A stretch of 32,494 bases of DNA from the NCBI GenBank assembly GCA_021810145.1, contig JAJZJL010000048.1, forward strand, positions 1-32,494. Reading direction: 5' to 3'. Positions 12,243 through 31,300 of this stretch are shown one piece after another. Positions within the stretch are counted from its first letter, which is position 1. Each line of letters opens with the position of its first letter. A program made the translations under genes and the position numbers. The DNA is from Planctomycetota bacterium (lineage in GTDB: Bacteria; Planctomycetota; Phycisphaerae; WQYP01). The notes below the pieces were generated by a model that worked only from the letters and a program-made list of their open reading frames with translations, made no database searches and had not been told where the DNA came from.

Positions 12243-15200
12243 TCAGATATAAAAGCCTTCGCGGTTGTTTTGCTTGTTTGCGGGCTGTTGATTTCGAATT
12301 AATTCCTGATCAATGCCCAAAATCAGCGAATGGATGACGTTGCCCCATTCTTCCAGTAATTCAATGGACCCGTCGTGGTTGGCCGGCGCTAAAATATCGT
12401 GTCGATGCAGGTGGGCTTTATCCATGGCCACAAATGCCGGCAGATGGCCATAGACAGGTCTACGCCGTTCAATCCAATGTCCGGTTGGACAGCTCTCAAG
12501 TGGCGGAACATCCATGGGTAATGGATCGGGAATTCCCGCCGCTCGCATTTCGCGCAGCCGATGAAGTCTTTCATTCACCGACACATGCCGTGTAAGCAAC
12601 AGCAGATCGTCGTTGGCGTAACGTGGCGGCGATGGTTGCGGGGGCAGCTTGAGTGTTTTGGCCCAGGAAATAAATTGGTCTTCCTCCATGGGCTTGGCCA
12701 GAAAATATCCCTGGATATTCTGGCCGCCTAAACGCAGCCAGTAAGCAAGTTGCTCCGAGGTTTCAACGCCCTCGGCAATCAGACGGGTACCCGAGAGTTC
12801 GGCAAATTGCAGGGCGGAAATCGTTACCGAAGCGTGCGCATTTTTTGCCAGCAGCCCCCCCATAAATTCCTGTCCGAGCTTGAGTTCCTTCACCGGCAAC
12901 GAAGCAGCATACAGCAGTGAAGCATGCCCCGTGCCAAAGTCATCGAGGCTTGTGGAAACATGGCGCAGATTAATGGCTTCAAGTCGTTGAACTGCCAGAG
13001 GCAAGTCCGTTAAGGCTGTGACTTCGGTAATTTCGAGTGTGAGAAATGATGGATCCGGGCAACCGGATAAAGCGGCATCCAGATCGGCCATGAAACTGGG
13101 ATGCAGCAGATGCCGCGAGCCGATATTCACACTGATTCGCAAATCCAATCCCCGGGCCAGCAGGCGCCGCCGCAGGTTCACCGCTTCACCGATCACCTGG
13201 CAATCCAGCAGACGAATCAGTGCGGGGTCATGTTCGATCACCGGCATAAAGGCGGCCGGAGAAAGCCATTTGTCACCCTCGCGCCAGCGTGCCAGCATTT
13301 CGGCACCATCGAGTTTTCCCAGCCGCATATTGGCTTGCGGTTGGAGAAAAAATCGTATGTTGCCCTCTTTCAAAGCGGTGGGAAACGTCTGCCGGATGCG
13401 AAATCGCTGTTCCACTTTCTCCGCAATGGCGCTTTGGAACACTTCAAAACGGGCGTTGCCTTCCTTCGCGGAGTACAAAACCGCATCGGCGTGCCGCAAC
13501 AGCGTTTCCCGATCCGCATTGTCGATGGGATAAATCGTAAATCCCATTCGCGCATTGACGTTGATATTCTGATCGTTCCAATTTACCGGCTCGGCGAGAA
13601 CCTGCAGCAATCTTTCCGCGGCAATGCCGATATTTACGCCGTCTTCCATGCTTAATATAAGACCGAATTCGTCGCCTCCCACGCGCGCCACCACATCGCC
13701 TTTCCGCATGGCGGTCCGCAGTCGGCGGGAAATCGCTCGCAGCAGATCGTCTCCGGCGGCATGGCCGAGGGTATCATTTATTTCCTTAAAGCCATCAATA
13801 TCCAAAATGCCAATCGCCATTTGCCGGTGATACCGATCCGCCCGTCCCATCGACTCGGTGATGGCGTGCTCAAAGTAAGCGCGATTGGGCAGGCCCGTCA
13901 GCGAATCGTGAATGCTCAAAAATTCCAGGCGTTCCCGCTGACGGTGGCTGGACAGTGCCAATGATGCGCTGCCGGCCAACTGGTCCAGTAGTTTTACGAT
14001 CGGCCGGCTGAAATAGCTGGATTGCCGGCTTCCGACAAAAAGAACTGCTTCGGGCTTTTTATCTTTCTCTCCGATCGGAAAGCCCGCGGCCCCGCGCAAT
14101 TTCAGAGAATTCAATAAATCTTTCCAGACCGCAAAATCGGGGTGTGACAAGGCATTTGGCACGACAAATTTCTGGCCGCTGCGAAACACGTTGCCCGTTA
14201 TGCCCAAGCCCCACGATCCTTCGAGATTGATGGATTTCTGCGATTGCAGCAGGTGTTCCACACCTTTGCCCGAATGACTGACGATCTCGGCGATTTGTGT
14301 CCGCGGATCAATGAGTCGCACGTAGGCAACTGGCGCATCAGTATGTTCAACAATCGTATCGACCAGCAATCGATAAATGGCCGGCGGTGTCGGATTCTTC
14401 AGAAGCATCTGATTGATTGCATCCAGCGCATCTTCGTAAGCGTGTAATCGCCGCAATTCCCGTTGCGAATGAATGCGGTTCAACGCACTGCCGATGTCAC
14501 TTGCCAACTGATTCAGCAGTTTCGCCGCGCCTTCGGGAAATGGAATTTCCGCCGAGCGGTACATGCTTAATAATCCCTGTTGTCCGCGCCGCGTTTTGAA
14601 TGGCGCGGTGATGCTTCCTGCCAAACCAAAACGCTCGGCTTGACTTCGCCACAAGTCAAAGGTTGGATCGTCGGCAAAGTTGTCCACCTGTATGACTTTG
14701 TTGCTTCTTAAAGCCTGCCCGCCGGGGCCGCAGCCTGCGGGATCAGTCGCGGATGCCGACAATTTGACATTGTTAAAATAAGCCTTTGCCGGACCCGCCG
14801 CAGCGCGAATTCGAACCTGATGCGTGCGCGGATTGATAAATCCGATTCCCAGCAGAGGGGCTTTAAGATAATGCGATAATGTTTCAACAATACCGTCCAA
14901 AAGCAGCGGAGCGCTGGTGTAATGAGCCAGTAACTGATTCGAGAAACGAATGGCCTCATACAGCGCTTCCTGCCGTTGCAGACTCTCCTTTTTTTCCTGG
15001 CGATAGCCGATCTCAGCGCACCGCTGGTCCAGTTGCAGTCGCTTATGCATGGCGCCAAGCAATAATTCCCGGTCCGATTCGGGAAACGCAGCGATGACCT
15101 TCGTCAGAAATTGATTAAACGCGTCGTAAACGCTGGATATCCACTGTTCGCTCATGGCTGATTTATGTGGCCAGGCACCCAATGAAATCTGATTATCCGC

Positions 15201-15464
15201 CTGATTGGCATCATAATCCGTCAGACATAATGTGGTAAAATGTTCTGTAATCTGGGCTTTAATACGATGAATGTCCGTTGCCGGCAGATTTTTAAGATAT
15301 TTCGCGCTTTGCGGGTTTTCCGCCAACCAGTTCCAGATCTGTTGAGTCAGGGATTCGCCATGCTGCGATAACCTGATCGCATGGCGGTGCAGTGTCTCCC
15401 GTTCCTGCGACGACAGCCGCAGCGAATCGGCCAGACGCAATACCTCCGCAAGATTTCCTGCCAA
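12243..15464 (-). CDS. Sensor-GAF-GAF-GGDEF-EAL c-di-GMP signalling protein, N-terminus protoglobin-like
   Basis: GGDEF domain ARVGGDEFGLIL with RKGD I-site five residues upstream; EAL-domain motifs GAEMLARWR, ISVNIGSRHLL, LEITEV, LDDFGTGHASL, IAEGVETSEQL, IQGYFLAKPM; two GAF-like segments before GGDEF; helical N-terminus resembling globin-coupled sensors. Confidence 0.9.
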   Translation of the reverse strand: MAGNLAEVLRLADSLRLSSQERETLHRHAIRLSQHGESLTQQIWNWLAENPQSAKYLKNLPATDIHRIKAQITEHFTTLCLTDYDANQADNQISLGAWPHKSAMSEQWISSVYDAFNQFLTKVIAAFPESDRELLLGAMHKRLQLDQRCAEIGYRQEKKESLQRQEALYEAIRFSNQLLAHYTSAPLLLDGIVETLSHYLKAPLLGIGFINPRTHQVRIRAAAGPAKAYFNNVKLSASATDPAGCGPGGQALRSNKVIQVDNFADDPTFDLWRSQAERFGLAGSITAPFKTRRGQQGLLSMYRSAEIPFPEGAAKLLNQLASDIGSALNRIHSQRELRRLHAYEDALDAINQMLLKNPTPPAIYRLLVDTIVEHTDAPVAYVRLIDPRTQIAEIVSHSGKGVEHLLQSQKSINLEGSWGLGITGNVFRSGQKFVVPNALSHPDFAVWKDLLNSLKLRGAAGFPIGEKDKKPEAVLFVGSRQSSYFSRPIVKLLDQLAGSASLALSSHRQRERLEFLSIHDSLTGLPNRAYFEHAITESMGRADRYHRQMAIGILDIDGFKEINDTLGHAAGDDLLRAISRRLRTAMRKGDVVARVGGDEFGLILSMEDGVNIGIAAERLLQVLAEPVNWNDQNINVNARMGFTIYPIDNADRETLLRHADAVLYSAKEGNARFEVFQSAIAEKVEQRFRIRQTFPTALKEGNIRFFLQPQANMRLGKLDGAEMLARWREGDKWLSPAAFMPVIEHDPALIRLLDCQVIGEAVNLRRRLLARGLDLRISVNIGSRHLLHPSFMADLDAALSGCPDPSFLTLEITEVTALTDLPLAVQRLEAINLRHVSTSLDDFGTGHASLLYAASLPVKELKLGQEFMGGLLAKNAHASVTISALQFAELSGTRLIAEGVETSEQLAYWLRLGGQNIQGYFLAKPMEEDQFISWAKTLKLPPQPSPPRYANDDLLLLTRHVSVNERLHRLREMRAAGIPDPLPMDVPPLESCPTGHWIERRRPVYGHLPAFVAMDKAHLHRHDILAPANHDGSIELLEEWGNVIHSLILGIDQELIRNQQPANKQNNREGFYI

Positions 15465-16818: not shown

Positions 16819-17553
16819 ATGCAGGCGAAAGTGAATAGAGAGTTGATGGAGGGGCGAGAATTGTTAGCAGGACCCAATATGACCGAAGCAGTATCCCAGA
16901 GCGCAGGTGGCACGGAAAGTCCGGAAACTGGAGTATCTGCGTCAAATTCCGGGGCTTTGCCTGCAGTACCGCAGGATGTCAATCCCAATGGATCCGGTTC
17001 GCTCATCAGCGCTGATGGTGTTCGCAAATGGTTTGTTTTACACACCAAAAGCCGCCAGGAAAAGGTGGTTTGCGATTTTTTCCGGGAACGTCAAGTTGAA
17101 TGCCTTTTGCCGCTTGTGTCCAAAACCACTTACTACGGCAAACGTAAAGTTAAATCAGAGCTTCCCTTGTTTCCCGGCTATGTCTTTGTTCACAGCGGTA
17201 TTCAAGATGCTTATGCGGCTGACCGCACAAACCGCCTGGTACGCATTATTCCAGTTTTTGATCAAGCTAAAATCGCGGAAGAGCTTTTCAGCCTGACCCG
17301 CACGTTGGATGCGGATCAGCCGTTTGATCGCCATCCGCACCTTGTCGCGGGGGTGCGAGTTGAGGTAAAATCCGGTCCGCTCCAGGGTGTGCGGGGCGTA
17401 GTGGAAAGCCGACTGAAAATGGATCGCTTGGTTTTGCAGGTTGACATACTTGGCCAGGCCATCAGTGTTGAAGTAGATGCCGACCTGCTGGCAGTCCTTG
17501 AGGATGCGCCGATGGAGGCAGAAAATCCCAGAGACGGCATTCGGGCGGCGTAA
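16819..17553 (+). CDS. NusG/RfaH/UpxY-like transcription antitermination protein (NGN + KOW)
   Basis: KWFVLHTKSRQEKVVCDFFRERQVECLLPLV...LPLFPGYVFV (NGN) and AGVRVEVKSGPLQGVRGVVESR (KOW). Confidence 0.9.
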   Translation: MQAKVNRELMEGRELLAGPNMTEAVSQSAGGTESPETGVSASNSGALPAVPQDVNPNGSGSLISADGVRKWFVLHTKSRQEKVVCDFFRERQVECLLPLVSKTTYYGKRKVKSELPLFPGYVFVHSGIQDAYAADRTNRLVRIIPVFDQAKIAEELFSLTRTLDADQPFDRHPHLVAGVRVEVKSGPLQGVRGVVESRLKMDRLVLQVDILGQAISVEVDADLLAVLEDAPMEAENPRDGIRAA

Positions 17554-17747: not shown

Positions 17748-18644
17748 GTGACCGCCGCAGTGACTGAAATGAATGCCGTTGCCCCCAAAGACCGCATTGG
17801 TCGTGGTTATCTCGTGGCCGCGGGAATACTGGTGCTGTTAACCATGCTGGTGCAGCACCGGGCCTGGCATGATGTGTTTGCAATTGCCATCAATGATCAG
17901 GATTCCAGCCATATATTGCTCGTGCCATTCCTGACGGCTTGGCTGATATTTGTCCGTCGCCTGCGCTGGCGTGAATGTCGCCTGACGGGCCGCTGGCTTG
18001 GGCCGGTGTTGCTGCTGCTTGGCGCTGCTACCAGCAATTTTGGGGTGGATCATGGTATGGCGGTCTTTTGGCATTTTGGCTCCTTGCTGATGGCCTTTGG
18101 CGCGGCCATCGCCGTGCTCGGCGTGGATATTGTCCGAAAATTTTTTCCAGCGTTTCTGATGCTGATGTTTCTTGTGCCGGTGCCGGCCACGGTCCGGCAG
18201 GCGATATCCGTTCCCCTGGAACATCTGTGTGCCCTGCTTAGTCAACAGATTCTGGAAATCGTGGGAGTAACGGTTTCCCGCGCCGGTAATGTGCTGATTG
18301 TTAATGGTGTAAAAGTGGAAATTGCCGAAGCCTGCGACGGAATGCGTATGGCCATTGCCCTTATGGTGCTTGTGGCCACCTTCACGCTGAGTATTCCGAT
18401 GAATCGTTGGGCCAGAGCTGTTTTTCTGATATTAAGCCCCGTGGTGGCGTTGCTGTGCAATATTATCCGTCTGGTTCCCACGGTGTGGGTCTTTGGCAAG
18501 TATCCGCATACAGCCGCCGAGAATTTTCATAATATTGCCGGCTGGCTTATGTTGCCGATTGCCTTTTTATTGTTCTGGGGTGTTTTGCGACTCTTACGCT
18601 GGGCGTCGGTTCCGGTAGCCCCCTTTGGCCTTGCCTATGATTAA
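17748..18644 (+). CDS. Exosortase (EpsH/XrtA superfamily)
   Basis: Polytopic membrane protein with Cys motif VEIAEACDGMRMAIAL, Arg motif LLCNIIRLVP and His motif ENFHNIAGWLM. Confidence 0.9.
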   Translation: MTAAVTEMNAVAPKDRIGRGYLVAAGILVLLTMLVQHRAWHDVFAIAINDQDSSHILLVPFLTAWLIFVRRLRWRECRLTGRWLGPVLLLLGAATSNFGVDHGMAVFWHFGSLLMAFGAAIAVLGVDIVRKFFPAFLMLMFLVPVPATVRQAISVPLEHLCALLSQQILEIVGVTVSRAGNVLIVNGVKVEIAEACDGMRMAIALMVLVATFTLSIPMNRWARAVFLILSPVVALLCNIIRLVPTVWVFGKYPHTAAENFHNIAGWLMLPIAFLLFWGVLRLLRWASVPVAPFGLAYD

Positions 18645-18710: not shown

Positions 18711-18930
18711 TCCGTTAGTGAGCCATGGGCATGTGGCACGTTGAGTGCATAGGAAGGCTCAGCAATGCAACAAATTCAAATGTCGTAACGGCACCGAACA
18801 TCGCGCAGCCTGGCGTTTGATCCTTCTCGGCCAACCCATGTTGTTTCACAAAGGACTCGGCACCGGGGGCATTTTCCGCTTTACAAATCGTCGTATTGCA
18901 CCGGCGATAAAACGGTTTCACTGGAATTTT

Positions 18931-19650
18931 ATGGTTTTAAGCAAACGTACAACCTCCTCCCGTTGTTCGGTCTGGTCTACCTGGGCACCCGCGGCGGCCT
19001 GCGTGATATTGCTGGCGGCCATTGAGGCTCGCGCGTATTTTGAAAAGCCTCCCAAGCAGGCGGGAGCGTATCTGGCTCATGTTCAGGCTCTGGCGGAACA
19101 GATGCCGAAGGTATTTGGTCATTGGATTGGCCGTGACGTCCCGTTGCCGCTTTCCGCGGTACATCTGCTGCAACCCAATGTGGATTTATGCCGCAATTTT
19201 ATCAACAGCAAGACCGGTGAACAGGCCACCTTAATGGTCATCGACTGCTCGGATACCCGCAATCTTTCCGGCCACTATCCGCCGAATTGTTATCCCGGCA
19301 ACGGTTGGATACTCGATAAATCAACGGCCAAAACCTGGGTGATTCAGAAAACGCCCATCACGGGCATGGAATACAAATTTCATCGCGGAGCGTTTGATAC
19401 TGAATCGCATATATACGTGGATGATTTCTTTATTATGCCGGACGGAAAATTTCTCGCCACTGAACGGGAATTTCTTCATGATTCCGGAAGTTTCAATGAA
19501 CGCGTTTTTGGGGCCGCGCAGGTGGAATTAACGCTGCCTGGCGACATGCTGCCCGCTGATCGCTTACAGGTATTTCATGATCTGATTGGCGCGAACTGGA
19601 AGCTCATAACTGCGATTTTACATGGGGTGTCCAATGAATCCTCAAAATGA
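18931..19650 (+). CDS. EpsI-like exosortase-associated protein (DUF3485)
   Basis: N-terminal TM then SGHYPPNCYPGNGWILDKS, the EpsI-type H-P-x-x-C-x-P-G-x-G-W region. ATG at 18931 (MVLSKRTT) preferred over the 18745 ORF start. Confidence 0.85.
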   Translation: MVLSKRTTSSRCSVWSTWAPAAACVILLAAIEARAYFEKPPKQAGAYLAHVQALAEQMPKVFGHWIGRDVPLPLSAVHLLQPNVDLCRNFINSKTGEQATLMVIDCSDTRNLSGHYPPNCYPGNGWILDKSTAKTWVIQKTPITGMEYKFHRGAFDTESHIYVDDFFIMPDGKFLATEREFLHDSGSFNERVFGAAQVELTLPGDMLPADRLQVFHDLIGANWKLITAILHGVSNESSK

Positions 19651-22084
19651 CAATATGGATTACGTGCCAACGTCGCTTAGACCGGAAATGGTTCCCGGAC
19701 CCGTCCAGTTCTCCGATTCCGGCGAACCGATGGCCAATCCATTGCTGCTGATCCATCGGCTGCTGATTGGCCGCTACCACTGGGCCATTCTGCTGGGGCT
19801 GGTGCTTGCGACCATCGGCAGTGTGTTAACGTACAAGAGTATCAAGCTGGTTTACACCAGCACGGGACTCGTGCGTATTTTGCCGTATTTGCCCCGCATT
19901 CTGTATACAACATCGCAGAATGAAGCCATGCCCATGTTCAGTGCGTATATAAATTCTCAAACCGCGCTGATCATGAGTTCCCGCACCATTGATCTTGCCA
20001 TGCAGAATCCAAAATGGCAGGCCCTGCACCGTGGAATTGATGCCGCGGCCAAGGCTAAGTTCGCCTCGGAATTAACCGTTACGCATAAGCCTGGCAGTGA
20101 ATTAATTTACGTTGCGTATACCAGCAAAGATCCGGTCGTGGCGCAAATTGGTGCCAATGCGGTGATCGGTGCCTATCGTCAACTCTACAGCCATGGCGAT
20201 TCCGCCACACAGAGTCTGCAGATCAGCGCCCTGCGCGATCGCCAGACGGTTCTGCAGAATGAGTTGCAAAGTGATCAGGATCAGATTGCCACGCTTTCCA
20301 GCCAGTACGGTGCCGACGGTCTCGGGACGGTTTACAACTACAAGCTGGGCTTAATGGATGAACTTGATACCCAATGGCAGGAAGCCCGGATTGCCCTGGC
20401 TAAAGCCGGATCAGGCTCGGGCACCGGCAAAGGAAAAGGCGGTGCAACAAAAGTCGCGAAAGCGCCGCTGGCTCCCGTTTATGACCCGCAAATGGCTCAG
20501 TTTGAATTACAGGCGCTGGCTCTGAAAAAATCAATCAAGGAACTGGAACTTTCCGGCTTAGGCCCCAACAACCATCGCATCATGAACTTGCAATCCAGTT
20601 TGGATGCCCTGCGCGATGAAATGCGAAGTTATCAGGCCAGTTTATCTGGAAAGGGGCCTTCGTTGGCTCCAACCACCCCCGGAGGCCCCATGTCGCTGGC
20701 TTTGCTCAAGGCACGGGAGCACCAGTTGCGCCTTCTGTATGAGTCGGTCAAAGCTCAAACCCTTGATCTCGGTGGCGTATACGCCAAGGTGCAAAACCTC
20801 CAAACCCAAAGCCAGGACTTGCGTCAGCAGCTCAACACCATCAAATCACGCATGGATGCCATTAATATGGAATCCGCCACCGGCGGTCGCATCCGTGTTG
20901 AAAGTACCGGTAATTTTCCGGCTGCTCCAACCACTAAATCCCGCCATCTTCGTCTCGCCGCCGCTGCCGCCGCCGGACTTGGCGGAATAATCGTCGGGTT
21001 CGGTGTGATATTGCTGTGGGGTTTCCTGCACGGCAATCTTCGCTCCGTAGGCGATATGCAGATTACCACATTAAATTCCTATCGGGTTCTCGGGGCAGTT
21101 CCGCAGTTGCCGCCCAATGGCGTGGCCACGCCGCTGGAACTTGCGATTGGCGCACATAGCATTCACCGCATCCGCGGCTTATTGCAGGTTCGCCCCAACA
21201 TGGCCGGCAGTCAGGCTCTGGCCCTTACCAGTCCAACGGCCGGAACCGGAAAAACCAGCATGGTCCTGGCACTTGGAATGTCTTATGCCGCCTCCGGAAT
21301 GAAAACCCTGCTTATTGATGCCGATGTGGTTGGCGGACAATTGACCGATCGCATGGGCATTCTGCGCAGCCAGCGCCTCGGCGATGTGATGGTCAAGCAC
21401 AAAATGATCACACGTGATCAGCTCAAGGAAGCTCTGGCCGCGGCCGCCGAATCCAAGCGGCCGGTAGGCTCCGAATTGCTGAACCTCGGCTACATTGACC
21501 ATGAAATACTTGAGAAGGCCTTACACATGCAGCGTTTAAGCAAGCGCGGCCTGATGGATGCCGTTGCCGGCAAGCCGCTGGATGAATGTGTGGTGCATAC
21601 CAAAATTCAAAATCTGGATGTTCTGCCGCTGGGACGCACCAAGGCCCATCACGGTGCCCGCATGTCCCCGGCATCCATCCGGGCAATGCTGGCTCACGCC
21701 AAGGAACAATATGATATGGTGCTGGTGGATACCGGACCGGTATTGGGTTCTCTGGAATCCGCATTGCTGGCCAGCCAGGCCGACGGGGTTCTGATGGTTG
21801 TGGCCCGTGGTGAAAGCCGCAACCTCTCGGGCCGCGCCGCGGATTATCTGGCTTCGGTTGGAGCGCACCTGGAAGGTGTGGTATTTAACCGTGCCACCGA
21901 TCGCGATATGCAGCGGCAATCGTATAGTACATCGCTGGAAAGCTTTACCAGTACCGCGCCCTCCGCGGATAACGCGCTGGCTATTCAGAATGATACCGAT
22001 CGCCTCAAGCCGATGGTGCCGCTTGGCCCGCTGGCCATGGCGGTTGCGGCCTCATCCACAACACCGGATGAAGAAGAAAAATGA
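19622..22084 (+). CDS. Wzz-type chain-length determinant fused to BY-kinase/ParA-like ATPase, with an apparent MshEN-like insertion
   Basis: N-terminal Wzz-like TM region (LIGRYHWAILLGLVLATIGSVLTY), coiled coil, second TM (AAAAAGLGGIIVGFGVILLWGFLHG); Walker A SPTAGTGKTS, A' KTLLIDADVVGG, B MVLVDTGPV. Overlaps the EpsI-like ORF end; alternative ATG at 19634. Confidence 0.9.
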   Translation: MGCPMNPQNDNMDYVPTSLRPEMVPGPVQFSDSGEPMANPLLLIHRLLIGRYHWAILLGLVLATIGSVLTYKSIKLVYTSTGLVRILPYLPRILYTTSQNEAMPMFSAYINSQTALIMSSRTIDLAMQNPKWQALHRGIDAAAKAKFASELTVTHKPGSELIYVAYTSKDPVVAQIGANAVIGAYRQLYSHGDSATQSLQISALRDRQTVLQNELQSDQDQIATLSSQYGADGLGTVYNYKLGLMDELDTQWQEARIALAKAGSGSGTGKGKGGATKVAKAPLAPVYDPQMAQFELQALALKKSIKELELSGLGPNNHRIMNLQSSLDALRDEMRSYQASLSGKGPSLAPTTPGGPMSLALLKAREHQLRLLYESVKAQTLDLGGVYAKVQNLQTQSQDLRQQLNTIKSRMDAINMESATGGRIRVESTGNFPAAPTTKSRHLRLAAAAAAGLGGIIVGFGVILLWGFLHGNLRSVGDMQITTLNSYRVLGAVPQLPPNGVATPLELAIGAHSIHRIRGLLQVRPNMAGSQALALTSPTAGTGKTSMVLALGMSYAASGMKTLLIDADVVGGQLTDRMGILRSQRLGDVMVKHKMITRDQLKEALAAAAESKRPVGSELLNLGYIDHEILEKALHMQRLSKRGLMDAVAGKPLDECVVHTKIQNLDVLPLGRTKAHHGARMSPASIRAMLAHAKEQYDMVLVDTGPVLGSLESALLASQADGVLMVVARGESRNLSGRAADYLASVGAHLEGVVFNRATDRDMQRQSYSTSLESFTSTAPSADNALAIQNDTDRLKPMVPLGPLAMAVAASSTTPDEEEK

Positions 22085-22875
22085 CCTTCCCGGCGGAGCA
22101 AACTATGCTGGCATCATCTGAGTCCGCGGCTAATGCGCTGAGGGTCTGGGGATATTCCCCATCCGACCTGCATGATCTGTTCTGGCTGTCCAAAGAAGTG
22201 GCCATTGTGCGGCCCGGTTCCAGAGAGCCGATTTCGCCTGATGCCCGGCTGTTTCTGCTGATTCCGGAAGATAAATTATTCCGTCTGCATCTCCGATTTG
22301 TTCTTGATCAGTTGTTCTGGATTCCGCGGGCGATGTATCTCATTGGTCTTCATCCGCCGGCGCGACGTAAATCCGCGCAGAACCCTGAAACAAATATGAT
22401 GCCCCATGATCACAATCCTGAAACGCCAGACGCGATGACCGTTGGGCATTGCCCGTCAGTTACCGAACCAGCCGCCCGCCTGGCGCTTACCGCGCACCGG
22501 CCCATCGCGGACTACTGGCGTACCATCAGCCCAGCGGATAACGTATGGATGTCTTTGCGAAGGCAATATCCGGATTTCGGTTCGATCAAAGTACCCGGAA
22601 TTGCCTATGCCGCCCACGGTTGTCAGGCTATGAATTATCTTCAGGCGTTGACACGGGACTGGCCCGATCCGGAAACGGCTATTGCCGGTATCACCCGTTT
22701 GGCGCATCGCGTGCACGGACCAAAAGGTTTTGATATGTCCATGTTGAAAAATCACACGCGCCCTCTCTGGATCGGCAAGGGCTGTAACGGCGCCGCTGCG
22801 GATCTCACCGCTACGGTACTGCCGGATGTTGTACCCGTCATGATTCCAACTGCTTCCAATATCGGGAGGAAATGA
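22081..22875 (+). CDS. Unknown 264-aa protein in the exosortase operon
   Basis: ATGA overlaps with both the preceding (22081-22084) and following (22872-22875) genes; no family recognised. Confidence 0.75.
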   Translation: MTFPAEQTMLASSESAANALRVWGYSPSDLHDLFWLSKEVAIVRPGSREPISPDARLFLLIPEDKLFRLHLRFVLDQLFWIPRAMYLIGLHPPARRKSAQNPETNMMPHDHNPETPDAMTVGHCPSVTEPAARLALTAHRPIADYWRTISPADNVWMSLRRQYPDFGSIKVPGIAYAAHGCQAMNYLQALTRDWPDPETAIAGITRLAHRVHGPKGFDMSMLKNHTRPLWIGKGCNGAAADLTATVLPDVVPVMIPTASNIGRK

Positions 22876-25800
22876 TGAATTCACGGCAACGCATGAAACG
22901 CCGCCTGCTGATACTCGCGGGTGTTATTCTGGCCCTGGTCGTACTTGGCGGGGCTTTGGTGATATACCGCAAGCACCGCATTCATGAGCATTTCCTGCAG
23001 CTCCGTGCCCAGGGACTGGCGGCTGTAAAGGCCAAAAAATATGAACTGGCGCTGGGGGATCTCGGGGCCTATCTTGGACAGGACCCCACCGATCTGCGCT
23101 CATTGGAAGGTTATGCCGCCGCAAGCCTGAAAGTGCCGCAGCCCGGCGGGAAAAATCTGTATCAGGCGGCCTCCGTTATCAAGCAGATTCTTTATCAAAA
23201 GCCCGACGATCTTTACTATCAGCAGAAACTTGTGAAATTGCTGGCTGAACTGAATTACAATGTGGAATGTGTAGCCTTGGCTCATCAGATACTGGCCAAA
23301 AATCCGGGCAATCTGCCGGCGCTGGAATCGGAAGCGCAAGCCTATGGCCGGTTGCGAAAATTCCGACGCGCTTTTGCCGCCGCCGATAAGGCGTTCCAGT
23401 TGTCGCCGGATCGTATTCAAAACGGCTTTCTCGCCTTGGATATGCTCTATCAGCGGCAGTTGCCGGCCGGAACTCTGACCAACTGGGCGGGAAAATTTCT
23501 GGCCAAGGCACCCGCCAATCCGGTGTATCAGGTGCTTGGAAGTGCCGCCGCCGCTTTGGCCGGTCACCCGGATAACGCCAAACGGCTGGCCCTTAAAGCT
23601 GCGGCCAATGCCAATCTTCCGGACTCGGTTATTCTTCCGCTGGAGCGGCAGCTGGATTCCCTGCGACTTTATACGCAGGCCACGCTGGTGCTCGAACACG
23701 CCGTTCGCCACGGCGCATCAATTCCCGTCCAGGAAGCGTTATGCGAACGACTCTATCAGCAGGGTAATGACGGCGCGGTGCTGAAACTTACGGCGACAAA
23801 ATCCACCGGCCATCCTCTGCTTCTGGCGTACCGGGCGCGATCGTTGCTGCGCCTGGATCATCCGCGCCGCGCGGCCCGGATTATGCAATTGCTCAAGGCC
23901 ATTAAATCGCCGGTTGCCGGCCAATGGTATGCCGTGCTGAATTTGCGGTTACATCCAGACGTGTCTGATCTTGCACGGATGAAAATTCTTCGCACGGCCG
24001 CCTCCACCTTTCCGGGACAGGCTTACTTTGTTGATCTGCTGGGCACCGGTTATCAGCATGTTGGTGAATTGGAACTGGCATTGATTCAATGGCAAAACGC
24101 CGCGCGCCTGGCCCCAACCTGGCCGGAACCCATTTTGCATCTGGCCATGGGGTTGGTGCGGGCCGGGCACCTCAAGGCCGCGCAAATGCTTTTGAAACAT
24201 GCCGCACAATTGGCTCCGGATAACAGGCGGGTACTCATTGATCAGGTGCGTCTGCTGGCCATGACCACTGCCATAAACAAACCTGCTCGTGTGGAAGCTT
24301 TACTGCATGCTATAGAGAATCTGCAGCGGGAAATCCCCGGAAAGCCAGTTCTGTTATCCGAACACATTCGCTGTTTGATGGCCTTGAAACAACCGGCCGC
24401 CGCACGCCAGTTAATCGCCGCCGCCCTGGCTGCCAGGCCGCCTCACAAACTATCGACACTTCTAGGGTTATATGCCGTCAATCGGGTCGGCAAACTGGGC
24501 ATGGGACAAACCATTTTGGCCGCTGCCGCAAAAACCTATGGTCTGCGCCCGCGCATCGCCTTGGCGTATGCGGGTCGATTGCTGCAGGCCAAGCACCCCA
24601 GGCAGGCGTTGACGTATCTGCAATCGCACCGCCGGACAACCGGTGCTTTGGCTCCGCAATGGGATTTGGCCATGGCGGAATTTCTCTCGGCCACAAAAAA
24701 TTCTGCCGCTCCCAAAGCCTGGAAAAAAGCGGCCACCGCCGATCCCACCAACGCCCATGCCCAATGGCTGGCATTGTCCGTGCCGGGCCTGCAATCAGAT
24801 CGCCGATTTATTCTCAGCACCTTTTCCAATCTGCAGGCCATTATCGGCAGCCGCGGTTTTTCCTGGAAAATGGCTAAGGCCGGCTGGCTGATTAATCACA
24901 GTGCCGGAAAAAAGGACCTTCTGGCCGCCCGAAAATTGCTGACGCAAACCATTCGCACCTCACCGGATGTGCTGCTGCCGCACCTGCTGCTGGCGCAAAT
25001 TGACCTGAAAAATTCCGATAAGGTTGACGCGATCAGTCAACTTCAGGTGGCGGCCGCACTGGCTCCGCAAAATGCCGGTGTGGCACTGCAACTCGCTCAG
25101 TTGTATCAAAGTGAAGGCGACAGTGAGCATGCCCGGCAGTATCTTCAACAGGTGGCCAGTTCACCCATTGCGACGCCCGCCCAGCAACGGCAGGCGGCCG
25201 CTTTATTCGTCGCCGATGGGCAAGCCAGCAAGGCAATTGACTTATTGCGACGTTCCCAGGGTGCTGGAAAATCCAACCCCGGTGATAATCTGATCCTTGC
25301 GGAACTCTATCAGCAGGAAGGCGATAGTAAGGCGGCTGCCCAACTGTATGATCAATTGCTGAAAACCCCGAACGCTCCAATTATCGCCGCCGCCAGCCGG
25401 TTTTATGCCCAGCATGGCCAACGTGGCAAAGCGCTGCGGATTCTGGCATTGCTGAAGAATCTGAAACTCACCCCCGGAATCGCCGATGTGATTTACGGTG
25501 ATTATTATGCCGATTCCGGTAAGGCCAAAAAGGCCCTTGCCGCATATCAGGCCGCCGTTGCCGCCGCACCGCGGAATCAAGTCGCCTGGTATCGGCTGCT
25601 GGCTTTGAACATTCGCCTCGGAGAATTTAAAGCGGTAAAGGAGACAATCCAGTCCGCTGTTGCCGCTCTGCCGGATGACAAAACCCTGGCTTTTGTGAAA
25701 GATAATCTCGGAACCATTAACCCGCTTATTAACAATGTAGTACTGCGGCCGCTGGCGGTGGCGCTGTTGGCGGATCCGCCTGTGCCATCCGCACAGAATG

Positions 25801-27023
25801 TGGTACAAATCGTCGGTACTTCCGCGGCAGGTAATCCCAAACTTGTGGAGTTTGCGGCGCAGCTGGCGCAATTGGCCAAGCAGCACCCGCGTTTTGCCGC
25901 ACTGCAGAATGCCGCGGCGCAGTTGTTGATTTCCGCCGGGCATCCCGGTCAGGCTGCCGTTGTGGCGCTTAGTGCGGTGCGAATGTTCCCCACCAGCGTT
26001 ACGCCCGCACGTTTGGCCGCCGTGGCGTTCGCGGCTTCGCACCAATGGTCGCAGGCCTTAAGCGCCGCCCAAACGTGGGCCAGTCGCAGTGCCTCCGACC
26101 CCACTTCCGCGGTTGTGCTGGAATCGGTGGCTTACTTGAATCTCTCTGAACCGCATTCCGCCGTCCGCACGCTGCAACCTTATCTCCATGCCGCGCTGCG
26201 GAACCCGGCGGGTGATCCCGGCGTTATCGCCGCATACCTTCAGGCACAAATTGCATTGCATAATATGGTTGAACTGAAACGTGTGCTGCTGCCCTTGCTG
26301 TCAAAGTCTCCCAATTGGCGGCAATTCGCCATTAACATCGCCAGCCGTGAATTACCTGCGGCAACCGCTGCGCTGTGGCTCCAGCGTGTGGCCGCCGCTA
26401 CACCCGCCGCCGCGCTGACGGAACAACTCCAACTGGCGCAAGGCTATTGGGCCTTGGGCCAGCGAGTCGGTAATAAAACCGATCTTAATCAGGCGGCCGT
26501 TTTACTTTCCAATTTGCTGAAAACCGGGAAGATGTCCCCAACTCAGCGTGGAACCATGCTTTCGGAATTGGCTACCGTGCAACTCTCTGCCGGAGAAACG
26601 CCCCTGGCGGTCACCAATTATCAGAACGCCTTAAAACTCAATGGCCATCTGCCGGTGGCCCAGAATAATCTCGCCATGCTGATGGTTCGGGAGCCTGATG
26701 CTGATTTAACCCAAGCCCGGTCGTTGGCTCAGGCTGCCGTGAAGCTTGCCCCCGATGTCGCCGCCTATTGGGACACCCTGGCTCTGGTTCAATCCCGCAT
26801 CGGTGATACCAAGGCGGCCATAAAGGCCATTAACTCCGCAATAAATCTCGATCAAACGGATCCGGAATGGGATGTGGATCTGGCCCGCATTCTCGTTCAC
26901 GCCGGCGACATGAAGCAGGCTGCGGCAGTACTGCATAAAATTGACCCCCAGAAATTAAATTCTCCGCAAGTTTCACCCAGTGCCAGGCGGCACTATGAAT
27001 CTCTCATGCAGCGGGTCAAATAG
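22872..27023 (+). CDS. Very large TPR-repeat protein with N-terminal TM (exosortase-locus TPR protein, PrsT-like in context)
   Basis: 1383 aa; N-terminal TM RRLLILAGVILALVVLGGALVIYR; many TPR-like helices (e.g. ALGDLGAYLGQDPTDLRSLEGYAAA, AVTNYQNALKLNGHLPVAQNNLAML). Confidence 0.85.
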   Translation: MMNSRQRMKRRLLILAGVILALVVLGGALVIYRKHRIHEHFLQLRAQGLAAVKAKKYELALGDLGAYLGQDPTDLRSLEGYAAASLKVPQPGGKNLYQAASVIKQILYQKPDDLYYQQKLVKLLAELNYNVECVALAHQILAKNPGNLPALESEAQAYGRLRKFRRAFAAADKAFQLSPDRIQNGFLALDMLYQRQLPAGTLTNWAGKFLAKAPANPVYQVLGSAAAALAGHPDNAKRLALKAAANANLPDSVILPLERQLDSLRLYTQATLVLEHAVRHGASIPVQEALCERLYQQGNDGAVLKLTATKSTGHPLLLAYRARSLLRLDHPRRAARIMQLLKAIKSPVAGQWYAVLNLRLHPDVSDLARMKILRTAASTFPGQAYFVDLLGTGYQHVGELELALIQWQNAARLAPTWPEPILHLAMGLVRAGHLKAAQMLLKHAAQLAPDNRRVLIDQVRLLAMTTAINKPARVEALLHAIENLQREIPGKPVLLSEHIRCLMALKQPAAARQLIAAALAARPPHKLSTLLGLYAVNRVGKLGMGQTILAAAAKTYGLRPRIALAYAGRLLQAKHPRQALTYLQSHRRTTGALAPQWDLAMAEFLSATKNSAAPKAWKKAATADPTNAHAQWLALSVPGLQSDRRFILSTFSNLQAIIGSRGFSWKMAKAGWLINHSAGKKDLLAARKLLTQTIRTSPDVLLPHLLLAQIDLKNSDKVDAISQLQVAAALAPQNAGVALQLAQLYQSEGDSEHARQYLQQVASSPIATPAQQRQAAALFVADGQASKAIDLLRRSQGAGKSNPGDNLILAELYQQEGDSKAAAQLYDQLLKTPNAPIIAAASRFYAQHGQRGKALRILALLKNLKLTPGIADVIYGDYYADSGKAKKALAAYQAAVAAAPRNQVAWYRLLALNIRLGEFKAVKETIQSAVAALPDDKTLAFVKDNLGTINPLINNVVLRPLAVALLADPPVPSAQNVVQIVGTSAAGNPKLVEFAAQLAQLAKQHPRFAALQNAAAQLLISAGHPGQAAVVALSAVRMFPTSVTPARLAAVAFAASHQWSQALSAAQTWASRSASDPTSAVVLESVAYLNLSEPHSAVRTLQPYLHAALRNPAGDPGVIAAYLQAQIALHNMVELKRVLLPLLSKSPNWRQFAINIASRELPAATAALWLQRVAAATPAAALTEQLQLAQGYWALGQRVGNKTDLNQAAVLLSNLLKTGKMSPTQRGTMLSELATVQLSAGETPLAVTNYQNALKLNGHLPVAQNNLAMLMVREPDADLTQARSLAQAAVKLAPDVAAYWDTLALVQSRIGDTKAAIKAINSAINLDQTDPEWDVDLARILVHAGDMKQAAAVLHKIDPQKLNSPQVSPSARRHYESLMQRVK

Positions 27024-27314: not shown

Positions 27315-27653
27315 ATGGAGCAGGTGTTTGAGGTGCGGCACTATTGCACCGCCGATGGCCGAATCATCGTCGGAGAATGGCTCCGCTCGTTGCGCAATAA
27401 GGAGGCGAAAGCAAGGGTTATTACCCGCTTTTCCAGGCTGTCGCTTGGAAATTTTGGCGACCACAGGGCCCTGCGCGATGGTGTATGGGAGTTGCGAATC
27501 GACACCGGTCCGGGTTACCGCGTGTATTACGCGCTGGCTGGAAAAACCTGCGTGCTGTTACTGTGCGGCGGTGATAAGAATAAGCAATCTTCCGATATCG
27601 AGCGTGCAGTGGCTTATTGGAAGGATTATAAGAAAAGGTCGGCATCGTTATGA
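27315..27653 (+). CDS. RelE/HigB-superfamily addiction-module toxin
   Basis: EWLRSLRNKEAKARVITRFSRLSLGNFGDHRALRDGVWELRIDTGPGYRVYYALAGKTCVLLLCGGDKNKQSSDIERA: typical addiction module killer protein. Confidence 0.88.
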   Translation: MEQVFEVRHYCTADGRIIVGEWLRSLRNKEAKARVITRFSRLSLGNFGDHRALRDGVWELRIDTGPGYRVYYALAGKTCVLLLCGGDKNKQSSDIERAVAYWKDYKKRSASL

Positions 27654-28121: not shown

Positions 28122-29087
28122 ATGACTGAATCGATTTATCAAAAAGTTGAGGCCATCTCCGCTGACCCTGTCTCGCAGGGTATGTCAGGCGGTATTTCCC
28201 AGCCGGATGACTTGCGCCATTCGAGCGAGCAATCCGCTGCAGCCGAAGCAGCGCCGCTTTCCGTGCCGCACCTGGTGTTGCGGCCCGGCTCGGCATGGCA
28301 TCTGGTCGATCTCGCCGAAGTCTGGTACTTCCGCGACCTGTTGTTCAGTTTCGCAGGCCGCGACCTGAAACTTCGATACAAACAAACCGCTCTGGGCATC
28401 ATTTGGGTGATTCTGCAGCCGTTAATGGCGGCTGGTGTTTTCACATTGGTCGGCAGCCTCGCGAAGCTGCCTTCGGGCGGTATTCCTACGTTTGTATTTA
28501 TGTTTGCGAGCATGCTGGCGTGGAACCTGTTTTCCAATACACTAGGTCGCATCAGTACTTGCATGGTGTCAAACTCCAACATGATCTCCAAGGTTTACTT
28601 CCCGCGCATTATTCTACCCCTATCCATTACGCCCTCGACCTTGGTGGATTTTTCCGTTGGCAGTTGCCTCATGGCTGTGCTGATGATTGTCTATCACATC
28701 GCACCGGGATTCGGCCTTTTATTGATTCCGCTGTGGGTGATGCTGATATTGCTGACTGCGGTAGGTTTTGGCATGATTGCCTCCGCCCTGGCGGTCAGTT
28801 ACCGCGATATACAATATATTTTGCCAGTTTTGGTGCAGACGCTTATGTTCGCAAGCCCGGTAATTTATCCTGCATCCGCGTTCAAAGCACATCACCCGGC
28901 CCTTTATCCATTTTTCTGCCTCAACCCGCTTTCGGGAATATTAACCGCATTCCGGTGGTCTATCTTTGGTAAGGGATCGTTTCCGCTTGAGCCGCTACTC
29001 TGGAGCGTGGCCGCCGCGGTTATCGCCGGCCTGATCGGCTTGTTTACTTTCAAACGGCTGGAAAGCCGCTTTGCGGATGTGATTTAG
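28122..29087 (+). CDS. ABC-2 type polysaccharide/polyol-phosphate export permease (Wzm-like)
   Basis: YFRDLLFSFAGRDLKLRYKQTALGIIWVILQPLMAAGVFTLVGSLAKLPSGGIPTF...VSYRDIQYILPVLVQTLMFASPVIYPASA...LNPLSGILTAFR. Confidence 0.92.
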   Translation: MTESIYQKVEAISADPVSQGMSGGISQPDDLRHSSEQSAAAEAAPLSVPHLVLRPGSAWHLVDLAEVWYFRDLLFSFAGRDLKLRYKQTALGIIWVILQPLMAAGVFTLVGSLAKLPSGGIPTFVFMFASMLAWNLFSNTLGRISTCMVSNSNMISKVYFPRIILPLSITPSTLVDFSVGSCLMAVLMIVYHIAPGFGLLLIPLWVMLILLTAVGFGMIASALAVSYRDIQYILPVLVQTLMFASPVIYPASAFKAHHPALYPFFCLNPLSGILTAFRWSIFGKGSFPLEPLLWSVAAAVIAGLIGLFTFKRLESRFADVI

Positions 29088-30280: not shown

Positions 30281-30475
30281 CATTCAGCATGCAGCCTCGA
30301 TTTGCCGATCCAATCGTCGGATCTGGAATCTGGAACCCTGAACCTGGAATTCTGTGTCGCGGGCCTCCCGCCCGCTTCCCCGGCCCGCCGGGACCGCATT
30401 GCCCATTGATCACTGATTCAAGGTTCAAGGTTCTGCATCCACTGAACCTACTGCCAATACTGACCATACTGTCAT
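30281..30475 (+). repeat. Composite dispersed repeat, copy B
   Basis: CATTCAGCATGCAGCCTCGATTTGCCGATCCAATCGTCGGATCT, heptamer arm, GC hairpins 30359-30392, heptamers, two or three 9-mers. Confidence 0.88.
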
Positions 30476-30516
30476 TGGTCATTGAGCGAAGCGCCCCCAA
30501 TGGTTACAGTATTGTC

Positions 30517-30744
30517 ATGAAGAATGGCAAACATTCGCCGCCAAAAAATATTGAGGTCATCGACGATGCCATGGCCGAGGTTCTGCGGGCAAAAACCGGT
30601 GCGCAGCGGCTCGTTATTGCCAGCGGGATGTATACAAGTGCCCGGCGCATGCTGATCGGTTACTTAAAGACCCAACATCCGGACTGGAGCGAATCGCAAA
30701 TCTCTGCCGAGGCCGCGCGGAGGCTTTCGCATGGAGCAATTTGA
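30517..30744 (+). CDS. Uncharacterised 75-aa protein, putative partner of the downstream nucleotidyltransferase
   Basis: ATG at 30517: MKNGKHSPPKNIEVIDDAMAEVLRAKTGAQRLVIASGMYTSARRMLIGYLKTQHPDWSESQISAEAARRLSHGAI; 14-bp overlap with the next gene. Confidence 0.75.
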   Translation: MKNGKHSPPKNIEVIDDAMAEVLRAKTGAQRLVIASGMYTSARRMLIGYLKTQHPDWSESQISAEAARRLSHGAI

Positions 30745-31300
30745 TCTGCTGCGATTCGCCGCGGGCGTGCTGGAAACCATGCGACTGCGCTACTTTGTCA
30801 CAGGCTCCACTGCAACAATCCTGTATGGTGAGGCCCGCTTTACCAATGACATCGACATTGTTGTGGATTTGCCGGAGGCACAGGTAGCGACTTTCTGCCG
30901 CCAATTTCCTTCCGGACAGTTTTACGTCAGCATGGAGGCGGCGCTTGACGCGGTACGCACCCGAGGACAATTCAATATCATTCACCCGGAGTCGGGTTTG
31001 AAGATTGATGTGATTATTCCGGTGGAAAATTCTTTCAACGCGTCGCGTTTCACCCGTGCACGACGGGTTGAAGCGGGGGGAGAGCTGGAAGTGTATTTTG
31101 CCTCACCGGAAGATGCGATTATAAAAAAACTGGAATATTATCAGTGTGGTGGTTCGGATAAACACCTGCGTGACATAGCCGGAATTTTGAAAGTCAGTCG
31201 GGGCTGTATTGACATGGAATATATTAATAAGTGGGCAACTGCTTTGGGCCTGGGAGAAATATGGACGGCTGCAAGCCACCGTGTGGCCTCGCCGCAGTGA
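30731..31300 (+). CDS. Nucleotidyltransferase-superfamily protein
   Basis: RYFVTGSTATILYGEARFTNDIDIVVDL (GS...DIDI), LKIDVIIP (third acidic residue), SPEDAIIKKLEYY. Confidence 0.8.
   Translation: MEQFDLLRFAAGVLETMRLRYFVTGSTATILYGEARFTNDIDIVVDLPEAQVATFCRQFPSGQFYVSMEAALDAVRTRGQFNIIHPESGLKIDVIIPVENSFNASRFTRARRVEAGGELEVYFASPEDAIIKKLEYYQCGGSDKHLRDIAGILKVSRGCIDMEYINKWATALGLGEIWTAASHRVASPQ

Follow-up and report, generated by a model that had tools for sequence, protein, structure and literature searches.

Organization of the locus

The window, that is, the whole stretch of 32,494 nucleotides that was analyzed, belongs to a contig of a Planctomycetota bacterium of the class Phycisphaerae. It contains a polysaccharide locus with the following genes:

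16819..17553, + strand: NusG-like/UpxY-type antiterminator, head of the locus (PF02357, NF033644)
17748..18644, + strand: exosortase (PF09721, E 1.8e-45; synteny)
18745..19650, + strand: EpsI/DUF3485 exosortase-associated protein; 29-nt overlap with the co-polymerase gene
19622..22084, + strand: Wzz/BY-kinase-like polysaccharide co-polymerase, 820 aa, with insert (open reading frame; TIGR hits below cut-off)
22081..22875, + strand: homologue of the N-terminal part of the relatives' Bac_transf sugar transferase; catalytic domain absent
22872..27023, + strand: large TPR protein, PrsT-like (TIGR02917, E 1.8e-40, below cut-off; synteny)

For this locus the domain identity, predicted fold, insertion site and recurrence of the insert, the operon context, the loss of autokinase hallmarks and the purifying selection were computed. 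The gene order exosortase-EpsI-insert protein-sugar transferase-TPR was found in most of the 25 neighborhoods examined. PF02397 was detected in all three full-length sugar transferase copies scanned, and no match to it was found in this genome (93.9% complete). A sugar transferase shortened in the same way, without the PF02397 catalytic domain, is also present in locus L154. Wzy_C and Polysacc_synt matches are located elsewhere in the genome. An Rfam search of the window returned no riboswitch and no other family.

A co-polymerase without the hallmarks of a kinase

The 820-aa protein matched the NCBIfam models TIGR01005, TIGR01007, TIGR03017 and TIGR03018 (exopolysaccharide transport, BY-kinase-like), all below their curated cut-offs, and EpsF/chain-length models likewise matched below cut-off. 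The following elements were assigned outside the insert:

19775..19843, + strand: predicted transmembrane segment 1, residues 52-74 (hydropathy)
20948..21040, + strand: predicted transmembrane segment 2, residues 443-473 (hydropathy)
21227..21259, + strand: Walker A TSPTAGTGKTS, residues 536-546
21302..21337, + strand: Walker A' KTLLIDADVVGG, residues 561-572; has DxD but lacks the canonical Arg
21716..21739, + strand: Walker B-like MVLVDTGP, residues 699-706
21887..22081, + strand: C-terminal tail; a single Tyr, hence no cluster

The two hydrophobic segments bracket the presumed periplasmic part, and the cytoplasmic ATPase lies in the same chain, which is the PCP-2a layout. With a Wzz-like periplasmic part, two membrane helices and a cytoplasmic ATPase of BY-kinase fold, the protein would act as a polysaccharide co-polymerase. 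An AlphaFold2 model of residues 497-786 was built from 34 sequences (mean pLDDT 88.6, pTM 0.81). Foldseek comparison of the whole predicted ATPase domain with the PDB gave CapA2B2 (CapAB), Wzc, Etk and VpsO as top matches, together with BceF, so that the domain has the BY-kinase fold.

The clade to which the protein belongs keeps Walker A, both Walker A' Asp residues and the Walker B Asp (VLVDTGP). The remaining hallmarks are missing clade-wide and present in most outgroup kinases. The DxDxR of Walker A' reads DADVV here and D-x-D-hydrophobic across the clade; the ExxRxxR before Walker A is replaced by HSIHRIR and similar sequences; and Tyr accounts for one of the 65 residues of the C-terminal tail, whereas outgroup kinases mostly have six to nine, in a cluster. 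Since the Walker A' Arg, ExxRxxR and the Tyr-rich tail are all lacking, the clade is best read as one of kinase-deficient ATPases, and the Tyr-phosphorylation switch of Wzc appears to be gone from it. The initial annotation had placed the insert inside a kinase fold: the BY-kinase-like fold agrees with the PDB matches, but the word kinase is probably wrong, as the residues for autophosphorylation are missing.

Compared with PCP-2a BY-kinases of the Wzc/Etk/VpsO type, the protein shares the two membrane helices, the Wzz-like periplasmic part, the BY-kinase fold, Walker A and the Walker B Asp; it differs in the missing Walker A' Arg, ExxRxxR and Tyr-rich tail and in the presence of the insert. 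The pseudokinase co-polymerases EcpK/EpsV and HfsB/HfsA also combine a BY-kinase fold without autokinase motifs with an exopolysaccharide pathway (PMC12004946). EcpK, however, is a separate protein without any Walker motif (PMC12004946), whereas the protein described here keeps Walker A, the Walker A' Asp and the Walker B Asp, is a single chain and carries a sensor-type insert.

A second Wzz/BY-kinase-like protein of the same genome (L186, 453-2669, - strand) has no insert. It also looks catalytically degenerate, because its Walker A (SFSPGGGASTV) is without the usual Lys.

An MshEN_N-type domain is nested in the ATPase domain

The inserted segment RLGDVMVKHKMITRDQLKEALAAAAESKRPVGSELLNLGYIDHEILEKALHMQ comprises residues 585-637 of the open reading frame and has the register 24+5+24, two 24-residue motifs joined by a 5-residue spacer (53 residues in total):

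21374..21532, + strand: inserted MshEN_N-type domain, four helices (NF053729; AlphaFold2; PDB fold match 5htl)
21374..21445, + strand: motif I, 24 residues; R1, L2 and G3 kept, G10 changed to K, Q24 changed to A
21461..21532, + strand: motif II, 24 residues; R1 changed to P; V2, G3, G10, L17, L21 and Q24 kept

The segment had been placed at 21374-21535 in the initial annotation, one codon too far at its end; its position between Walker A' and the Walker B-like motif was given correctly. The tandem pattern had been taken as MshEN-type, and this assignment was borne out by NF053729 (NCBIfam c-di-GMP_motif; 'cyclic di-GMP-binding domain-containing protein, MshE-related'). Residues 585-637 align with all 53 positions of this profile (1-53) at 43.8 bits (E 1.6e-11; curated cut-off 38 bits), and NF053729 is the sole domain above cut-off in the 820-aa protein in the NCBIfam scan. 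In the genome-wide profile search the same insert scored 48.8 bits, and three divergent homologues each exceeded the cut-off (57.4, 55.2 and 54.6 bits). A PDB sequence search with the insert returned PilF of Thermus thermophilus (E 7e-5) and MshE of Vibrio cholerae (E 0.002) at the top. The proposed check against Pfam would not have shown this: no MshEN/T2SSE_N family was listed for the insert at E <= 1, so that Pfam alone would miss the domain. Sub-threshold Pfam matches of the segment alone to FumaraseC_C, DUF4388 and DUF4426 were set aside in favor of NF053729.

In the alignment, insert-free relatives have only a short loop joining the helix after Walker A' to the next 'GL/GI' helix, and the insert occupies the place of this loop. 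Structure prediction, a check proposed in the initial annotation, gave a confident four-helix bundle inside the BY-kinase fold. The insert helices span model residues 90-96, 102-115, 119-125 and 131-144, with pLDDT means of ten-residue blocks of 87-98 over model residues 91-150 and of 79 at the N-terminal junction. Modeled alone, the insert reached a pLDDT of 82.9. Its best PDB fold match was 5htl, MshE with c-di-GMP (rmsd 1.0-1.5 over 51-55 columns), followed by PilF GSPII-B with c-di-GMP; at 0.013 and above the E-values were weak, which is normal for a query of 70 residues, and lower ranks were taken by fumarase helices. The insert is thus predicted to have the four-helix bundle fold of MshE.

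These data also bear on the possibility that the segment consists of ordinary BY-kinase helices or of a chance helical repeat. The fumarase C-terminal helices in the isolated fold search and the sub-threshold FumaraseC_C match would suit such a segment, but the 53 profile positions above cut-off, the clean absence of the segment from sister proteins and the first rank of the MshE and PilF domains do not. The profile, alignment and fold results refute this reading, to which we give practically no weight, and the call of an MshEN_N-type domain is secure.

A few residues separate the start of helix 1 from the linker that comes from the Walker A' region; at the other end, Gln 637 is the last contact residue and adjoins the return linker. 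The start of helix 1 lies at about residue 578 in the isolated insert model and at residue 586 in the context model. Apo-like and holo-like states are not demonstrable from these two models, as their alignments differ.

The predicted c-di-GMP site

Gly3 of MshEN motifs touches the Hoogsteen edge of guanine through its backbone. It is present in both motifs of the insert (G587, G616), and the hydrophobic L2/L17/L21 triads are preserved as L, L, L in motif I and as V, L, L in motif II. Wang et al. (2016) give a relaxed motif; motif II (PVGSELLNLGYIDHEILEKALHMQ) satisfies it and motif I (RLGDVMVKHKMITRDQLKEALAAA) fails at positions 10 (Lys) and 24 (Ala). Position 1 is Arg in motif I and Pro in motif II, and Pro is allowed by the relaxed motif. 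Pro at this position of motif II is also found in the c-di-GMP-binding PilF GSPII-C (PMC11731258, PMC12002112).

The Gly-to-Lys change in motif I, to which uncertainty about ligand binding had been attached initially, is present. However, it affects a turn position, at which motif II has Gly here and at which motif I has Gly in 18 of 31 representatives. The more relevant departure had gone unmentioned: Q24 is changed to Ala, and across the clade this position holds Ala or another small residue. Not one of the 31 representatives has Gln at position 24 of motif I (A 19, S 7, V 3, G 1, T 1), while 24 of 25 MshEN proteins of pilus-ATPase length from the same class do. Gln24 of motif II is kept in 27 of the 31, including this protein. 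Changes of Arg9, Asp12 or Gln32 of MshE cost at most about fivefold in binding, and the MshEN_N part alone binds c-di-GMP (PMC5013675). In PilF GSPII-B the change Gln190Glu at the equivalent position lowered the affinity 158-fold, to 950 nM, which the authors regard as still potentially relevant in the cell (PMC11731258). By analogy, loss of the motif I Gln suggests binding that is weakened, not abolished.

Both guanine-contacting glycines occur together in 21 of 29 representatives, and both are lost in seven, in which the domain is retained. Thus, in about a quarter of the representatives the insert can persist without the pocket. This would fit a degenerate MshEN domain that has lost its ligand and acts on the ATPase ring as a spacer or as a site of protein contacts, docking, for example, the sugar transferase or the TPR partner. 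Several lineages without the two glycines keep the fold-forming residues, the motif I Gln is missing in all 31 representatives, and the related PilF domain GSPII-A is a natural non-binder (PMC12002112). On the other hand, all 21 representatives with both glycines have the motif II Gln, and 20 of these 21 have Arg or Lys at position 1 of motif I. In addition, conservation at the twelve contact positions exceeds that of randomly drawn sets of equal size (permutation p 0.004, with kinship ignored). We consider a ligand-free module rather unlikely, although a serious alternative.

The uniformity of the Gln-to-small change, compared with the Gln of the pilus-ATPase domains, would also be compatible with a different nucleotide, or with c-di-GMP bound asymmetrically, through the small residue (mostly Ala or Ser) at position 24 of motif I. 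The replaced Gln contacts the ribose-phosphate and not the base, and the guanine-reading glycines, which are part of the MshEN specificity determinant (PMC5013675), are unchanged. An altered ligand or binding mode is improbable in our view. On balance, the insert probably binds c-di-GMP, although with no great certainty.

Retention of the two glycines was also tabulated (29 both, 8 neither, 1 mixed). Their co-loss was discarded as statistical support, because two to three changes on the tree are enough to explain it and it yields no more than two independent pairs. In L130, L131, L132, L133, L125, L135, L034 and L048 both RLG motifs are eroded and the helical segment is kept; in L032 and L035 the insert is reduced to a stub.

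Distribution, phylogeny and selection

The initial annotation had proposed a search for the same architecture in other Planctomycetes. Continuous matches spanning the insert were found at 38 places in 35 of the 397 sampled genomes of the class (a hand count from the match list; family codes f1, f6, f15 and f18). In the phylum-wide sample of 392 genomes three strong matches were obtained outside the class, all covering only the part after the insert. A scan of named records added the Phycisphaeraceae, a 'Planctomycetaceae' MAG and one Hydrogenedentota MAG with an eroded insert.

In a tree built without the insert columns, the insert is confined to one clade of exopolysaccharide proteins. This clade (100/100) comprises all insert-bearing proteins, seven insert-free proteins and two with a stub, and the insert-free members form a single group inside it (98/96), so that presence and absence require two changes; deep forks of the tree are unsettled, its bootstrap had not converged and the outgroup branches are long. 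The distribution indicates that a single gain of the insert was probably followed by its loss in one branch and by erosion in others. The insert-free clade members lack the kinase hallmarks as well. The disappearance of the kinase features and the arrival of the insert therefore appear associated near the base of the clade, in either order.

Between congeneric genomes the dN/dS of the insert was 0.04-0.07, compared with 0.02-0.05 in the rest of the domain, at a dS near saturation. The insert is under purifying selection.

A candidate c-di-GMP switch in a polysaccharide co-polymerase

Direct c-di-GMP receptors are known in synthase-type exopolysaccharide systems, such as PilZ in BcsA and MshEN in NfrB. 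The part of the literature that was searched contained neither a direct c-di-GMP receptor inside a Wzz/Wzc-type co-polymerase nor a description of the present architecture. A summary in one paper connects MshEN domains with 'protein phosphorylation' and with 'polysaccharide secretion'; some fusion of a related kind may thus be on record already.

MshE of V. cholerae and PilF GSPII-B/C of T. thermophilus resemble the insert in the tandem 24-residue motifs, the 5-residue spacer, the four-helix bundle, the guanine-binding glycines and the fusion to an ATPase. Their domain is N-terminal, is followed by an MshEN_C subdomain and belongs to a secretion-type (type IV pilus) ATPase, whereas the insert is nested in an ATPase of MinD/BY-kinase fold, is without MshEN_C and has a motif I without Gln. 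NfrB of Escherichia coli likewise has an MshEN domain, which controls an exopolysaccharide system (PMC8669469); NfrB is, however, a processive glycosyltransferase with a C-terminal MshEN domain, compared with a nested domain in a co-polymerase here.

The Wzc octamer comes apart when its Tyr tail is autophosphorylated, and cycling is believed to be a requirement for polymer production (PMC8285477). We propose that an MshEN_N domain entered the ATPase domain of the co-polymerase at the loop that separates Walker A' from Walker B. One c-di-GMP molecule would be bound across the two half sites of the four-helix bundle, with reduced contact at the first, where Ala takes the place of Gln. Two of the binding residues are situated right at the junctions, Arg 585 at the N-terminal and Gln 637 at the C-terminal one, so that a bound ligand could move the Walker A' strand or the subunit contact. 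This could shift the assembly of the co-polymerase ring, and polymer synthesis or export would go up or down; the proposal allows either sign of the c-di-GMP effect, activation or inhibition. The insert would thereby take the role of the phosphorylated Tyr tail in Wzc.

It is plausible that c-di-GMP gates polymer assembly, and we give about even credence to the explanation as a whole, a co-polymerase whose ATPase domain acquired MshEN_N and in which c-di-GMP shifts ring assembly and polymer output. The reading that we favor, and hold tentatively, goes further: an embedded allosteric c-di-GMP switch may have replaced the Tyr-phosphorylation switch of a Wzc-type co-polymerase in this clade of the Phycisphaerae. 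If true, a co-polymerase-dependent polysaccharide machine would contain a direct receptor for the second messenger, and one solution would be at hand to the question, raised by the work on EcpK, of what controls co-polymerases that are kinase-deficient. As natural versions with an intact, an eroded or no insert occur within one clade, the regulation of pseudokinase co-polymerases becomes directly testable.

Genomic context of the signal and neighboring genes

Since the genome contains 11 GGDEF matches and one weak PilZ hit, the c-di-GMP signal is probably present in the cell. GGDEF counts of genomes with intact, eroded or absent inserts showed no difference tracking the site; GGDEF matches were equally common with eroded and intact sites, and decay of the site thus does not follow loss of the signal. 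Five copies with eroded sites (L145, L149-L152) have no detectable EpsI or TPR neighbors, which counts as a single observation because all of them belong to one branch.

Upstream of the operon, at 12243-15464 on the - strand, a Protoglobin-GAF-GAF-GGDEF-EAL protein is encoded, likely an oxygen-linked c-di-GMP enzyme. A homologue was not found beside the operon at the same-genus locus L155, and the gene was dropped as a candidate dedicated partner of the co-polymerase.

Downstream of the TPR gene lies an ABC-2 permease of polysaccharide type (KpsM/Wzm-like, below cut-off; 28122-29087, + strand), which was also observed in L142 and L155. An ABC exporter beside a Wzc-type co-polymerase is unusual. 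Toxin-antitoxin-like genes are located near the operon at 27315-27653, 30289-30744 and 30731-31300 (+ strand), with matches to Gp49/DUF891 and to Rv0078B-like proteins with a DUF6036/AbiEii-like nucleotidyltransferase. A homologue of the gene starting at 30731 lies between EpsI and the exosortase in L155, which suggests mobility.
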